From a virus: DNA of 20,785 bases. How positions within the stretch are numbered: position 1 is the first letter of the stretch; each line of letters starts with the position of its first letter. The notes below the pieces were generated by a model. That model was not told the DNA's origin, did no database searches, and saw only the letters and a program-made list of their open reading frames with translations. The position numbers and the translations under genes were made by a program. Where the stretch lies: the IMG/VR virus record IMGVR_UViG_3300020172_000709, positions 1 through 20,785 of that record; one strand, written 5' to 3'. Below are positions 5,240 through 12,181 of the stretch, piece by piece.

Positions 5240-6391
5240 TCAGACAGTGCCGTCATCACGCAGGAAACTGAATGCGGTGGTGATGAAGTCCTTGTTGAGG
5301 ATATCAAAACCGGCATACAGTTGCCAGATTAGGATGATGAAGCGGCTGAAGTCGTCGTTGTTGTTGATCAGGACCTGAGCGTTCGGGCCGCCAATACCAA
5401 CACCAACAGCTTGAGGACCGAAGAAGTAGCCTTGAGCAACTTCGTAGGTACCAGCACCAGGGGAAGAACCCAGGGTAGCAGCTTGTGTCTTGTTGGGGAA
5501 GTTGGTCGACTCGAAGAACTTCACACCTTCAAACTGAACGCCAGTAGGCATTACAGGTTCACCAGCCAGGAAGTAACCTTGACCAGCTTGGGGACCTTGG
5601 AAGAAGCTAGCGTTGTTAGGCATCATGGGGTTGCCCATGTACATGCCTTGGCCAGGATTACCTGAGTAACGAGCGATCTCGCGGAAGTCAGGGTCACGAC
5701 GCAGGTGCATCATGAACGTGGGGTCGCAGATGCAACGGTACAGACCATCAGCGAAGGTAGGAACGTTGCGCTTACGCAAGTCCTTAACAACGGTCAGAAG
5801 GTCGGTACGCACCTGGAACTGCTGAACATTAGCGGTGTACTCATCTGCGGAGTACACAGGGTTCTTTTCCTTACCACCGGGGAAGTAGTAACCACCCTGG
5901 GTAGAAGATGCAGGACCGTTAGCTTCGGCTTTGGACAGTTCGTCAAGGAAGACGCGGTCACGCCACCGGCGATAGTCGTCGAGCAGGGTCAGTGAACCGA
6001 TACTCTGGTGGAACATGTTCAGGTTACCGGTGTCCAGCAGCATGCGCTGGGCGGTAATCAGGGTTTCACGAGCAATCTTAAAGGTGCTGGGCTGGGTGGG
6101 ATCGCCGGGGTCCGCAGGACCGGTGTATTCCTTAAGCACCACCAGGACTTTCTCCTTGGTGATGTTACGGCTGTTGGCGGTACCAATGGTCTGGTCGGAA
6201 ATGCGCTCGCGGCTATCCTTAGTACCGGGGTTGCCCCAGAACTTGTAGCGGTCGAGTTGAACGGTCTGACCGGGTTGGCGAGTAAAGTCGTGGACGACCA
6301 CGGGCTCTACTGCCATCTCGCAGATGTAAGCAGGATGGGGACGGTAAAGTTCCGCGCCCAAAATCTTAGGAAAGTCGGTATCAATGAACAC
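5240..6391 (-). CDS. Probable major capsid protein (383 aa)
   Basis: The length, the place directly after a scaffold-like gene, a good ribosome binding site and richer G+C codon choice than the outer genes all fit a highly expressed capsid protein. It starts at GTG (6389-6391) ten bases after GGAGG. Sequence marks include C-D-P-T-F-M-M-H-L-R-R-D-P-D-F-R near residue 220, a Gly/Met/Gln-rich loop G-N-P-G-Q-G-M-Y-M-G-N-P near 245, Y-F-F-G-P-Q-A-V-G-V-G-I-G-G near 320, and a hydrophobic end F-I-I-L-I-W-Q-L-Y-A-G-F-D-I. The FGP.A.GV element and aromatic end recall HK97-fold capsid proteins such as the N4-gp56 type, but this is from memory. It is preceded by two stem-loops. Confidence 0.72.
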   Translation of the reverse strand: MFIDTDFPKILGAELYRPHPAYICEMAVEPVVVHDFTRQPGQTVQLDRYKFWGNPGTKDSRERISDQTIGTANSRNITKEKVLVVLKEYTGPADPGDPTQPSTFKIARETLITAQRMLLDTGNLNMFHQSIGSLTLLDDYRRWRDRVFLDELSKAEANGPASSTQGGYYFPGGKEKNPVYSADEYTANVQQFQVRTDLLTVVKDLRKRNVPTFADGLYRCICDPTFMMHLRRDPDFREIARYSGNPGQGMYMGNPMMPNNASFFQGPQAGQGYFLAGEPVMPTGVQFEGVKFFESTNFPNKTQAATLGSSPGAGTYEVAQGYFFGPQAVGVGIGGPNAQVLINNNDDFSRFIILIWQLYAGFDILNKDFITTAFSFLRDDGTV

Positions 6392-6504: not shown

Positions 6505-6981
6505 TTAAACAGCGTAATTAATGTTGCTCGAACCATACGCCTGGGGGTTAATTACCGTGCCAGGTTGAGAGCCTTGTTGGAAACCAGGAACGCCAATTGC
6601 GTTGACTACGTTAGAAAGACCGCCTCCGATGAGGCCACCAATTCCTGCCGAAATAGGAATAGACGCAATTTGTGAGGCGGCAAGTAGACCAGATTGTTGG
6701 TTTATCTGTTGTCTAGCTTGTTGCCTAAGATCTTTTGATGCCCTAGGAATGGATTTAACAGCATTCTTTTGGGCGTAACGTATTCCTTGTGGTAAAGCAC
6801 CTAGCATGATACCGGCAGGTAATGCGTTAACACCTGCCATCAAAGCTTCGGTTGCAATACGCGCAGGGCCTTCACCTTGCTCTGTATCTTGTAGGTTACC
6901 GAGGATAGAACCCCCCGCACCCAACAAGCCTGCTGCACCTGCTCCCAGTAAGGGCGCATATTTACCAGCGAGAAGGCCCAT
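6505..6981 (-). CDS. Glycine-zipper protein between scaffold and capsid (158 aa)
   Basis: The ATG lies four bases after the TGA of the scaffold-like gene, whose last codons give GGAG at seven-base spacing. Residues 8-30 (Y-A-P-L-L-G-A-G-A-A-G-L-L-G-A-G-G) and 104-130 (containing I-S-A-G-I-G-G-L-I-G-G-G-L) are Gly/Ala-rich and hydrophobic, with small residues at helix-packing spacing. A third hydrophobic stretch lies at 49-65. A basic helix with R-Q-Q-A-R-Q-Q-I-N-Q-Q (86-96) separates them. The end is N-P-Q-A-Y-G-S-S-N-I-N-Y-A-V. Such segments occur in phage proteins that insert into or cross membranes. A role in capsid assembly is the alternative. No family recognised. Confidence 0.75.
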   Translation of the reverse strand: MGLLAGKYAPLLGAGAAGLLGAGGSILGNLQDTEQGEGPARIATEALMAGVNALPAGIMLGALPQGIRYAQKNAVKSIPRASKDLRQQARQQINQQSGLLAASQIASIPISAGIGGLIGGGLSNVVNAIGVPGFQQGSQPGTVINPQAYGSSNINYAV

Positions 6982-6985
6982 TACG

Positions 6986-7963
6986 TCACTCCATCACAAA
7001 CAATTTGTTTGCTAGAACTTGAGGCTGAGCTTGGTTGATGACGCGCCAGGCATTCTGAGGATCACGATCCATCATGTCCTTGAAGCTACCCCAGAAGTTT
7101 TCAGGCTGTTGCATAGCAGCAGCAGAAGGAGGAGCGGGGAATTGACCCTGTTCGTAAGCAACAGGTTGAGTGCGGTAACCAGGGGTTTCCAGTTGCTGCT
7201 CACTTTCGTACACAGGGTACGGACCTTCGGGGCCAAAGAACTTCAGCGTGTAATCGCTAAGTACGTCGGGGTTGGTAAGGATTTCGTTATAAGCAAGGTT
7301 CTCTTGATGCTCATTGACAGAGAACTGTGCATAACCCTGGATGGTATTAGCAGCTTGGTTGCCCCAGGCCACTGCACTATCCAGCATCCCTTCCAGGTTA
7401 AGGGCGTAGTTATTTAGGACGGCGGGTGCTTCGATTCCGAACGCGTCCATTACTTGGCGGCTTTCCTGGCTCATCCCCACGAAGTCCGCGATTTGCTCCA
7501 AGGACGGAGTCGAGGAGGTTTGGGAATAATTGGGCGAGTATTCCTGGCTGGGAGACCAGGTCTGCGGAGCCGATTGTTGCGTAGCTGGGCTGCTGACTTG
7601 TCCGTAGTTCGCCGGGGCGTACTGAGGAGTCGGTGCTGAGGGTTGACCCTGGAACGGGGATTGGACTGGTGCGCTCAGCAGGTTCACTACCTTGTTGAAC
7701 GCCGACTCCCAAGGATTGCCCGCCGAGGAGCTCTGCGATTGGTCCGCTTGTTGGTACTGGGGGGCGTACTGAGTAGGGGCTGATTGGTAGCTGGGGGCTG
7801 CCTGAGGTACCGCCTGGGGGTAGCTCATACCCACTTGATACGGCACCGGTGCTGTTTGGTAGCTGGGCGCCGGAGCCGACTGAGCCGGTACCACGTAGCT
7901 GCTTGGAGCTACTGCTGGTGCTTGGCTCATCTGTGGGATCGATTGGACGGTAGCGTCCTGCAT
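6986..7963 (-). CDS. Scaffold-like protein overlapping the portal gene (325 aa)
   Basis: The ATG has an excellent ribosome binding site (AAGGAG, seven-base spacing) that lies inside the portal reading frame. The first 554 bases are shared with the portal gene in another frame. Residues 1-155 are low-complexity Pro/Gln/Ser/Ala/Tyr with repeated P-S-Y-Q-[TS]-A-P and Q-Y-A-P units. From about residue 155 on, the sequence is helical and acidic (L-E-Q-I-A-D-F-V-G-M-S-Q-E-S-R and following). The C-terminal part contains E-N-F-W-G-S-F-K-D-M-M-D-R-D-P. The position directly before the capsid gene, the acidic helical composition and the disordered N-terminus suit a procapsid scaffold, though no catalytic or family motif proves it. 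Confidence 0.7.
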   Translation of the reverse strand: MQDATVQSIPQMSQAPAVAPSSYVVPAQSAPAPSYQTAPVPYQVGMSYPQAVPQAAPSYQSAPTQYAPQYQQADQSQSSSAGNPWESAFNKVVNLLSAPVQSPFQGQPSAPTPQYAPANYGQVSSPATQQSAPQTWSPSQEYSPNYSQTSSTPSLEQIADFVGMSQESRQVMDAFGIEAPAVLNNYALNLEGMLDSAVAWGNQAANTIQGYAQFSVNEHQENLAYNEILTNPDVLSDYTLKFFGPEGPYPVYESEQQLETPGYRTQPVAYEQGQFPAPPSAAAMQQPENFWGSFKDMMDRDPQNAWRVINQAQPQVLANKLFVME

Positions 7964-9713
7964 AACTCATCTCCTTTTGTAATGCTTCAAGAGTTCGATA
8001 CAGATACGGAGTAAGATCCAATCTGGGATCCGCAGCCATCGGTAAGTCCGGTGATTGCGGGTGGGGGGTCTGCATCATGCCACCCACTAAGCGAGAGAAA
8101 GAAGAATATGCATTCTGTAATTCTCCCACCATCCTGAACGGGAACCCAGATAACATCTCGGCTCGTTCCTCATCCGTTTTTGACGGGAAGAGGTATTTCA
8201 GTGCTTCAATGCTATCAACACCTAATTCTTGTAGGTTGCGTACCACGATGGAATTATTAAGTATATCCTGGGTGGAGTCTTCATAAACAGGGCCCAACCA
8301 ACGCCACTGCACAGTTAAATCGCCGTCAGGGATAAGACCTAATACACCGGGCGGTACTTGTTGTGTTTTAACACAAGCCATCATTAGCTGTTTGACACGC
8401 TCATCAAAACCAACTAAAGCATCGGCATACATATCTAATTGTTCTTGCGGCGCATCTTCTTTTGGCTCTACTGGTTTCTCCAGTCCGGCAGCAGCAGCTA
8501 GTGTCTCACGGAATAAACGCTCTTCCTGGTAAATGATTAACTCAAGGCAACGAGAGATGCCATACGTATAAATTGCGTTTGCTTTCTTCTTGGATGTGGC
8601 AGATACACGTCCAAATAGTGACTTGTATTCTGTTGCCGTAACGCCTGCTGAAATAGATAGTTCGTCTACACCACCAAGGGCAGTGCGAATTTCTTCTCGA
8701 TATTGACGTGCAAATGAATTTTGGTCTCCTGTAATTGCATCTGGAACAATGTAACCAACTCGGTCATTTGGCTCCAGGTTTGCAATGATCCTTGGCACAC
8801 GAATCTGTCCATCAACACCACGGCTGACGGGATCTGATTTAAATGTGGAACGGCTAAGGGCAGCTTGGCTGGTAAAACCTGAGTTGGCTGCAATAGATGG
8901 ACGCTGTACAACAGAGTCGCCACCGGCTTCAATCAGGTCTGTCTTGGGACGGGAAGATAGTAGGGTTGGGCTACCAAAGAACTGAATGTTCTTACGCATG
9001 GTACGCACCAATTCATCATGCGTAACAATGTGATTAGCAAGCCCATCAAACTCACCCACGCCTTCAGTAGAGAAGCCTTTGGGGTTGTTGAAGATTTCTA
9101 CACAGGGAATAAACCCGAGAGTGTTTTTAAATGTTTTAGTTTGACCAGATGCCACAGAATGTGGCTGATCAAATGAAAGCTCCCCTTCTGAATGCGTCTC
9201 TTCAATTGTTTTACGTTTGATTGACAGTTTAATAAAACGTCGGGCTCCTTGTCCACCAAGGGTTGCCGGGCCCATTAAGCTGCTTTGGTTCACATCTTGT
9301 GTGTAGCCAAAACCATTACGCACACGATAGCTGTAGATGATTACCACCTCATCCAGCTCACCGTCTATGTTGTAGTAAGTACGGTACTCATGCTTACGGA
9401 AATAATAGAGACGGTAATTGGCTTGTGTTGGACGTATGTAGAACAGGCCTTGCCCGTCACACATGCAATTATCCCAGATCGAATCCAGGCGTGTGTCTAG
9501 TTGGTTGTATTTAACTACGCGGTCAATAAAGTCTTTGCGTTGATTACCAAAGTTGTCTTGCGCTGGAAAAAATTCAACACCCTGACGGATGCCAAACATT
9601 TTCATTTGAGATAGATGAGAAGCAACAATGCCAGTGTCTACACCAGCCCCTCCGTCCTTGTCGAGGTAGGAATCAACAATTTCTTTAAGGCGACCCTTAG
9701 CATCGACAGCCAT
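7410..9713 (-). CDS. Portal-like protein with overprinted C-terminal tail (767 aa)
   Basis: The portal forms the ring at the capsid vertex through which DNA is packaged. Supporting segments include an N-terminal helix region, N-H-I-V-T-H-D-E-L-V-R-T-M-R-K-N near residue 232, D-L-T-V-Q-W-R-W-L-G-P near 465, and the helix D-I-L-N-N-S-I-V-V-R-N-L-Q-E-L-G-V near 484 followed by a conserved-looking hinge and A-L-K-Y-L-F-P. Residues 1-583 look like a normal folded portal. Residues 584-767 are Ser/Pro/Gly-rich, end in basic R-N-R-S-T-R-R-P-K, and lie wholly over the scaffold gene. The start ATG follows a weak GAGTTGAG. The call rests on length, gene order next to TerL and scaffold, and sequence character. 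Confidence 0.72.
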   Translation of the reverse strand: MAVDAKGRLKEIVDSYLDKDGGAGVDTGIVASHLSQMKMFGIRQGVEFFPAQDNFGNQRKDFIDRVVKYNQLDTRLDSIWDNCMCDGQGLFYIRPTQANYRLYYFRKHEYRTYYNIDGELDEVVIIYSYRVRNGFGYTQDVNQSSLMGPATLGGQGARRFIKLSIKRKTIEETHSEGELSFDQPHSVASGQTKTFKNTLGFIPCVEIFNNPKGFSTEGVGEFDGLANHIVTHDELVRTMRKNIQFFGSPTLLSSRPKTDLIEAGGDSVVQRPSIAANSGFTSQAALSRSTFKSDPVSRGVDGQIRVPRIIANLEPNDRVGYIVPDAITGDQNSFARQYREEIRTALGGVDELSISAGVTATEYKSLFGRVSATSKKKANAIYTYGISRCLELIIYQEERLFRETLAAAAGLEKPVEPKEDAPQEQLDMYADALVGFDERVKQLMMACVKTQQVPPGVLGLIPDGDLTVQWRWLGPVYEDSTQDILNNSIVVRNLQELGVDSIEALKYLFPSKTDEERAEMLSGFPFRMVGELQNAYSSFSRLVGGMMQTPHPQSPDLPMAADPRLDLTPYLYRTLEALQKEMSYAGRYRPIDPTDEPSTSSSSKQLRGTGSVGSGAQLPNSTGAVSSGYELPPGGTSGSPQLPISPYSVRPPVPTSGPIAELLGGQSLGVGVQQGSEPAERTSPIPVPGSTLSTDSSVRPGELRTSQQPSYATIGSADLVSQPGILAQLFPNLLDSVLGANRGLRGDEPGKPPSNGRVRNRSTRRPK
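7971..7976 (-). promoter_or_regulatory. Ribosome binding site of the scaffold gene inside the portal gene
   Basis: AAGGAG on the minus strand lies seven bases before the ATG at 7963. In the portal frame the same bases are part of the codons for Q-K-E-M. This decides the scaffold start and is the main sign that the overlap is used. Confidence 0.85.
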
Positions 9714-10651: not shown

Positions 10652-12181
10652 CTAAAAATCAATTTGAAGATTACCCTTACGCATTAAACCTGTAATGAGC
10701 CAGACCAAAGCGTCGACCGTATCGTCGTGGCTGCTGACACCAAAATTAGTCAACTCTTCAAACAGAGTTGTAAAGTTGCGATACCGATTAAATACCACTT
10801 TGCGATCTTCAAACATACCCATAATCCCCCTAAAGCGAGCCAACTTATCCGCCCGGAATGCTTTAACGGGATGCCAAATCAAGTTATACAGTCCTTCGTT
10901 GTTCAGGCAAACACGTTTAAAGTCTGACTCCAGGGATGCCTGGTATGCCACTGATTCAGACCAGATATCACAGGTCGAATATGTAGGGAAGTAAAGGCCG
11001 TTTTCCTCTTTTCCAATGATGGACCAGTCATTGAGTAGCTCTTTTAACTCATCTAGTTTTTCCAAATTTCCCATGACGCGAAGGCGTCTGTAATCAATAA
11101 TATGAATCTGATCACCAATACGTCCTCCAAGAATCATTACCGTGTAATCATTCTTTTCTTTGACACCAGCAGATAGATCAACCCCAATACCAAGCGCATC
11201 AAACTCAGTTGCAATTTCAGCTTTGACTAGTAGTTCAGGCGAAAGAGAAAGTTCGTTCTGCCTGACGATTTGATTCATGTACTGGAAAGAAAAAGCAATA
11301 GGTGCTTGCCGCTTCTTTTCTTTTAGGTATTCAAGTGACCACATTTCTGGCCAATAAGATTCTTCTTCTCCCGTTACAGGATCAGTGTTGATGGCAGAAA
11401 GAATAATCTGTCGCCAATTGTTTTGCTCATTGAAAGTAGTAGCGTGAATATCGTCATGCCTAAATCTGGTACCCAGGCAAATTGCACGTCCACCTTCGAA
11501 CATGGTAGGTGCAATAACTGCGTTCCAGTTATCTTGCATGGTACGCCTAATATCTGGGTTGGATATGTCAGCACTACTTTTGATAGGGTCATCTATACAA
11601 ACTAAGTGACTACGCTTGGAAGTAACGGAACCCTTTAGGCCCGCTGCACATAAAGTAAATTGTTCATCACCTGTATTTTCAATACCAGCAAAGCGATAAT
11701 CAATTGACCAATACTCGTTACTTGTTACATTTTTAAGAAGACGTACCGAGGGGAAAACATCTTGGTATCGCTTGCTTTCAATGATGCGCTTAATGGTTGC
11801 TGACTTAGAACGTGCAATATCAACCGTATAAGACAAGTAAAGAATCTGGAGAGGTTTTTTGGCGGTGGTATGAACGCCAATTGCCCATGCCGCAAGCAAA
11901 CCCAAGACTGTAGATTTAGCTGAACCCCTGCTGGCAAGTAAGTCTAGGTTGGGACCAGCGATCTTAAGAAGGCAGTCACTGTCTTGATTTGGGACAAGGT
12001 GATGATGCCACTCTAGATGGTGCTTAGCTGGTTTCTTTTTTTCGTCAATGTATTCACAAAAGAAAGCAAAATCTTCCCGTGCCTTCAGGAGTAGATCTTC
12101 GTCATCGCGTTTACGCACCTTGTGATTTTGCGCAGCAGCTTGTGCGTTACGCCGATAAGCAAGGTGTGTATGAGCTGGCAT
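10652..12181 (-). CDS. terL: Terminase large subunit
   Basis: This is the DNA-packaging motor ATPase and nuclease. The ATPase domain shows a Walker A variant A-S-R-G-S-A-K-S-T (83-91), Walker B L-V-C-I-D-D (193-198) and the coupling motif G-T-R-F-R-H-D-D (237-244). The nuclease domain has G-V-D-L-S-A-G with D335, an acidic centre near D405, and H-D-D-T-V-D-A-L-V-W (485-494) with D486/D487/D490. The length of 509 residues is normal for the family. It acts at the portal vertex and presumably works with a small subunit encoded upstream. The ATG follows a perfect eight-pair inverted repeat by one base and lacks a normal ribosome binding site. Identification is secure. Confidence 0.93.
   Translation of the reverse strand: MPAHTHLAYRRNAQAAAQNHKVRKRDDEDLLLKAREDFAFFCEYIDEKKKPAKHHLEWHHHLVPNQDSDCLLKIAGPNLDLLASRGSAKSTVLGLLAAWAIGVHTTAKKPLQILYLSYTVDIARSKSATIKRIIESKRYQDVFPSVRLLKNVTSNEYWSIDYRFAGIENTGDEQFTLCAAGLKGSVTSKRSHLVCIDDPIKSSADISNPDIRRTMQDNWNAVIAPTMFEGGRAICLGTRFRHDDIHATTFNEQNNWRQIILSAINTDPVTGEEESYWPEMWSLEYLKEKKRQAPIAFSFQYMNQIVRQNELSLSPELLVKAEIATEFDALGIGVDLSAGVKEKNDYTVMILGGRIGDQIHIIDYRRLRVMGNLEKLDELKELLNDWSIIGKEENGLYFPTYSTCDIWSESVAYQASLESDFKRVCLNNEGLYNLIWHPVKAFRADKLARFRGIMGMFEDRKVVFNRYRNFTTLFEELTNFGVSSHDDTVDALVWLITGLMRKGNLQIDF

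Follow-up and report, generated by a model that had tools for sequence, protein, structure and literature searches.

The phiX174/ID11 microviruses carry a capsid scaffolding protein coded out of frame in another gene, protein B being an internal scaffolding protein in an overlapping frame of gene A (PMC3922989). In the HIV-1 tat/rev and rev/env overlaps, either protein has its key residues at positions where its partner is disordered or tolerates change (PMC9119678), and overlapped proteins are generally enriched in Ser, Pro, Arg and disorder (PMC6195259). Overprinting, an overprinted scaffolding protein and the segregation of key residues are already known kinds of arrangement. The genomes of tailed dsDNA phages are not thought to be short of space, and long out-of-frame overlaps of two structural genes are, to our knowledge, unusual among them. 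The new element here is an unusually long and old overprinted portal/scaffold-like gene pair in a tailed phage; we found no report, in the literature searched, of a lineage-wide portal/scaffold-like overlap of ~550 bases in such a phage. The likeness to gene B in gene A lies in the presumed scaffolding protein being coded out of frame in another gene, but the present case belongs to a tailed dsDNA phage whose genome is large (79 kb in S-EIV1), pairs the scaffold-like gene with the portal gene, whose product is itself part of the procapsid, and joins the two genes at their ends instead of nesting one in the other. T7-like podoviruses have the same gene order of portal, scaffold-like and major capsid genes, from which the present order differs by a short extra gene at 6505-6981 ahead of the major capsid gene; we know of no comparable portal/scaffold overlap in the T7-like podoviruses. 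Synechococcus phage S-EIV1 (KJ410740) has the same genes and the same overlap, but in its GenBank record the scaffold N-terminus and the greater part of the major capsid gene are not annotated.

The window, that is, the whole 20,785-nucleotide stretch of DNA analysed here (IMG/VR record IMGVR_UViG_3300020172_000709), covers the head-gene region of an S-EIV1-like cyanophage, and its portal is 96.5% identical to that of S-EIV1. The features to which we refer are the following.

5240-6391, minus strand: major capsid protein gene, 383 aa (phrog_1357 major head protein, E 3.9e-19), which gives context for the scaffold assignment
6505-6981, minus strand: small glycine-rich gene, 158 aa, between the scaffold-like and major capsid genes
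7963-6986, minus strand: scaffold-like gene (ORF), 325 aa, with residues 1-184 overlapped and 185-325 outside the overlap
9713-7410, minus strand: predicted portal gene (ORF), 767 aa, with residues 1-583 as core and 584-767 as overlapped tail
7410-7963, minus strand: out-of-frame overlap of the two genes, 554 bases, in which the scaffold is read in the +1 frame of the portal
7413-7445, minus strand: basic portal C-terminus RVRNRSTRRPK
7515-7571, minus strand: portal tail motif GSADLVSQPGILAQLFPNL, residues 715-733, portal-dominated constraint, predicted helix at 723-738
7652-7717, minus strand: scaffold motif NPWESAFNKVVNLLSAPVQSPF, residues 83-104, scaffold-dominated constraint, predicted helix at 84-97
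7963-7961, minus strand: ATG of the scaffold-like gene
7976-7971, minus strand: Shine-Dalgarno AAGGAG of the scaffold gene, inside the portal ORF, with a 7-base spacer to the ATG
10652-12181, minus strand: terminase large subunit gene, 509 aa (phrog_38, E 6.7e-78; Pfam Terminase_6C)

Across 7410-7963, the minus strand is open in both the portal and the scaffold frame. The G+C content of the overlap is 0.60 versus 0.46 for the portal core; by 60-base lines, 7741-7800 within the overlap counts 38 G+C and 8161-8220 in the portal gene outside it counts 27. In this segment the scaffold frame encodes the repeats PSYQTAP, PSYQSAP and two QYAP, and the portal frame encodes a 184-residue tail (584-767) that is 43% Ser/Pro/Gly and ends in RVRNRSTRRPK. 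A first-pass annotation of this DNA had described a long out-of-frame overlap of portal and scaffold-like genes. Its coordinates, the AAGGAG at seven-base spacing, the repeats, the composition of the tail and the G+C counts were all correct on recheck, and the overlap itself proved to be real, coding and unusually long. We consider it highly likely that the head genes of S-EIV1-like phages contain a fixed overprinted segment of ~500-660 bases, which encodes two functional disordered extensions with separate initiation.

The 767-aa product is identified as a phage portal protein from its predicted fold, for which the model is of low confidence but the matches are uniform. Residues 1-748 match phrog_20475 (‘head and packaging, virion structural protein’) and a weak match to phrog_64 (portal) was also obtained. 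The AlphaFold model has a mean pLDDT of 49, and with this low-confidence model as the query, the best Foldseek matches of the predicted core were all solved phage portals (E down to 3.2e-7), the 29 matches at E<=0.001 being phage portals or portal-tail complexes. The fold matches the T7, P-SCSP1u and Pan3 portals at a sequence identity of about 9-14%. The tail is predicted to be disordered apart from short helices at 723-738, and its last 12 residues are basic across 149 non-redundant loci, with a mean of 5.3 K+R (minimum 2) and at most one D+E. This basic end and the helix motif are retained across ~54% portal identity.

The scaffold role of the 325-aa product is presumed from gene order and predicted fold. 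The gene lies between the portal and major capsid genes, and structure prediction gives a scaffold-like fold with a long helix at 179-230, which would form the helical rod, and C-terminal helices at 287-323, residues 1-152 being predicted as disordered apart from the helix at 84-97. No homolog of known function was found in PHROGs or in PDB sequence and fold searches, and we use the name scaffold-like because homology to a proven scaffold is lacking in these resources. A family search with the 158-aa product of 6505-6981 gave no match.

Relatives were collected by IMG/VR scans (portal, scaffold, the DNA pattern at the scaffold start and divergent relatives) and from GTDB genome contigs, yielding 503 loci, some of them stretches of one and the same contig; the overlap occurs among them in 294 distinct sequences. 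The loci were then recounted from an anchor, with no overlap demanded. Of these, 460 extend 700 bases or more beyond the scaffold ATG and were scorable, and every one retains an overlap in the portal frame, 497-662 bases long. Retention in 460 of 460 relatives rules out both a read-through accident and a sequencing error as the source of the open frame. The third same-strand frame was never open, with at least two stops (median six) in each of the 294 distinct overlaps. Both ORFs were recovered in all but 11 of the 460 loci, and in 10 of these the scaffold ORF runs into the contig end. L412, also among the 11, has a scaffold-frame stop beyond the overlap, after residue 231 (6721-7416 of that locus, ..EMSS*HQAYET..), which is either a sequencing error or a true truncation.

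The relatives form two clades, A with ~72-98% portal identity to the window and B with ~54%, and the overlap is present in clade B too, a clade first recognised from L272 and L273. These two contigs, at ~54% portal identity, are binned in the ‘Bacteroidetes’ MAG QQUU01, likely as free phage binned with it, and the portal core ORF of L273 is interrupted by a frameshift. From comparison of the sequences, the overlap is judged to be older than the split of clades A and B. The case that the first-pass annotation had named as telling against its proposal, a portal that stops near residue 585 beside a retained scaffold N-terminus, was sought among the relatives and not found. A portal-frame stop inside the overlap occurred only in L213, about 12 bases from the contig end, and L159 has several frameshifts already in the portal core; both were considered as truncated-portal relatives and judged to be errors. 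A tblastn search with the portals of both clades against 50,697 phages matched S-EIV1 only and gave no deeper outgroup. IMG/VR scans with divergent queries and the genome scan likewise yielded no outgroup without the overlap, all complete regions being overlap-bearing. A 443-aa viral protein, A0A110B6E0, matched by Foldseek on predicted structure, may be such an outgroup. Group G238, which contains S-EIV1, represents 3.3% of marine cyanophage content (PMC5332604). The overlap is fixed across this environmentally common lineage of picocyanobacterial viruses.

The portal frame might be open merely by chance above a scaffold N-terminus of high G+C and low complexity, with a tail that is translated but useless, and the G+C-rich, low-complexity composition of the overlap is in keeping with this. 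When the scaffold codons were resampled synonymously, the portal frame remained open in 4.7% of permutations and in 0.01% of samples drawn by genome codon usage; in the reverse test with portal codons resampled, the scaffold frame remained open in 0.08% and 0.45%, respectively. By itself, resampling is moderate evidence against chance, and the comparative evidence is decisive. With a script of our own modelled on OLGenie, and with two kappa values, each change was classed by what it does to the portal frame and to the scaffold frame. For the 13 closest independent pairs, portal dNN/dSN was 0.42-0.52 (95% CI 0.26-0.75 over the two kappa values) and scaffold dNN/dNS was 0.19-0.25 (95% CI 0.13-0.36), so that the per-frame comparison proposed in the first-pass annotation gave values below 1 for both frames; dN/dS was 0.03-0.06 in the non-overlapping parts of the same pairs. 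The corresponding values in clade B were 0.57 (0.45-0.71) for portal and 0.36 (0.28-0.46) for scaffold. At larger divergence the portal-frame ratio reached 0.7-0.9 (0.82-0.87 with CIs reaching 1), as expected from saturation or from weak constraint outside the motifs, and a ratio of this size therefore suggests that, away from its motifs, the portal is less constrained.

Changes that would create a portal stop and are silent in the scaffold were counted at most 16.5 times versus 200 expected in clade A (209 distinct overlaps) and 22 times versus 106 expected in clade B (93 distinct overlaps), a depletion of at least 12-fold and about 5-fold, respectively. The few that were counted probably stem from codons with several differing bases, and no portal ends early. 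As estimated from these substitutions, the overlap is under purifying selection on both frames in clades A and B, and both overlapped segments are taken to be functional because both frames are so constrained. The chance-open reading is contradicted by the frame being open in all 460 relatives, by portal-frame constraint in both clades with strong depletion of stop-making silent changes, and by a basic C-terminus and helix motif that persist at ~54% identity; we regard it as highly improbable. A conserved RNA structure or regulatory element, rather than coding, could also slow synonymous change, which is indeed suppressed in the overlap, but the folding z-score was only -1.43, no Rfam match was obtained and the pattern tracks the codon positions and amino-acid motifs of each frame; an explanation by such an element has very little probability.

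With hundreds of sequences available, the sharing of one DNA stretch by two proteins is therefore readable site by site. The scaffold-dominated block NPWESAFNKVVNLL and the portal-dominated block GSADLVSQPGILAQLFPNL form the same mosaic in both clades. In the scaffold helix block WESAFNKVVNLL, the substitution class that is silent in the scaffold and changes the portal was at 0.152 versus 0.006 for the reverse class, and the clade B block NPYKEAFNRVVG gave 0.300 versus 0.039. The pattern was inverted in the portal block ADLVSQPGILAQ, with 0.043 for the scaffold-silent, portal-changing class versus 0.171 for the reverse, and in its clade B counterpart GDADLYAWDQQQ, with 0.026 versus 0.174. The only helices predicted in the two overlapped segments fall on the selected blocks or directly beside them. 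Judged against the predicted structures, the key residues of each protein sit where the other protein is flexible, the same residue segregation as in the HIV-1 overlaps, here read from the comparison of substitution classes along the overlap.

In the first-pass annotation, the portal tail was proposed to have arisen later, through overprinting of the scaffold N-terminus; this is not supported, and codon usage leans the opposite way in 149 of 149 loci. Read in frame, ordinary genes of the window had a codon score of 0.10 +/- 0.06; their +1 and +2 frames scored -0.16 and -0.08, respectively. In the overlaps of 149 non-redundant loci, the score was -0.05 for the portal frame and -0.22 for the scaffold frame, the latter resembling a non-coding +1 frame, and the portal frame was closer to genome codon usage in every locus, although these loci share ancestry and are not independent. 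Since portal-frame codon usage is nearer to that of the genome, the scaffold N-terminus would, if anything, be the overprinted part. A history that begins with the scaffold N-terminus, and in which loss of the portal stop later let a tail grow across it, agrees with the stronger overall constraint on the scaffold frame, but the codon scores are against it and no short-portal relative was found; it is possible but doubtful. For the reversed history, in which the portal tail came first and an internal start, once gained, extended the scaffold gene upstream, we see about an even chance. This direction draws on the codon-usage asymmetry and on most of the predicted folded scaffold region lying downstream, outside the overlap, but the portal-frame score is itself below those of ordinary coding frames, all relatives carry both the portal tail and the scaffold N-terminus, and the codon usage of old overlaps re-equilibrates (Sabath et al., as cited in a passage of PMC8227390). 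Both frames are old enough for their codon usage to have been reshaped (compare PMC8227390). On codon usage, the evidence leans weakly to the portal tail having come first and the scaffold N-terminus having been overprinted on it.

The Shine-Dalgarno of the scaffold gene is predicted to pair with a mean dG of -8.4 kcal/mol over 147 loci, versus -3.2 for that of the portal, and the SD-like site is retained in register in both clades despite the variants AAAGGAGATGAGTT, AAAAGAGGTAACYT and GAAGGAAGTAACTT. No internal promoter was found ahead of the scaffold gene on the minus strand near 7970-8300, where promoter-like sites did not exceed those in shuffles. The portal would be translated from its own weak start, and the scaffold-like protein would be initiated within the portal ORF via its own strong Shine-Dalgarno. 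The strength of this site fits separate initiation at unequal rates, and the simplest reading is that independent internal initiation would give more scaffold than portal from the same mRNA; the idea in the first-pass annotation that the overlap ties the dose of two procapsid partners together is not supported as stated.

The overlapped part of the portal would be a disordered Ser/Pro/Gly-rich tail that carries a single helix motif, amphipathic in appearance, and ends in basic residues, and that of the scaffold-like protein a disordered Gln/Ala/Pro/Ser-rich N-terminus with one helix motif. The C-terminal end of phage portals faces the capsid interior. The portal tail would most likely point into the capsid, where its helix would contact an internal partner (scaffold or ejection protein) and its basic end would contact DNA; the finding predicts a functional portal tail. 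Docking of the tail helix motif on the scaffold N-terminal helix or on the growing scaffold core is a rather unlikely possibility, and, if true, one DNA segment would hold both halves of the portal-recruitment interface, and recombination could not separate the matched partners.

The S-EIV1 record implies a different reading, in which the portal alone is read in the overlap and the scaffold begins past the portal stop as a 134-aa protein, and the annotation of 59863-60264 alone in KJ410740 is what favours it. A strong Shine-Dalgarno and ATG stand at a fixed place in all relatives, the constraint on the scaffold frame exceeds that on the portal frame and the motif NPWESAFNKVVNLL is conserved at the protein level, all of which contradict a portal-only overlap, and we consider it very unlikely. 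The annotated product of KJ410740 59863-60264 (L151 11327-11728) comprises the last ~133 scaffold-like residues, and the overlapped N-terminus is absent; standard gene calling here misses half of a conserved protein of the structural region.

The major capsid gene of S-EIV1 is also mis-annotated (L151 12248-13474, KJ410740 60784-62010; the counterpart in the window is 5240-6391). Where the 383-aa capsid gene, which starts with GTG, should stand, the record has AHV82227.1, an ORF on the opposite strand, and AHV82228.1, a C-terminal fragment. In addition, the S-EIV1 terminase (846 aa; L151 5544-8084) contains an intein of ~330 aa between SKRSHL and CLIDDP (Pfam Intein_splicing, E 1.4e-11), and the same site is uninterrupted in the terminase of the window (10652-12181), where it reads SKRSHLVCIDDP.
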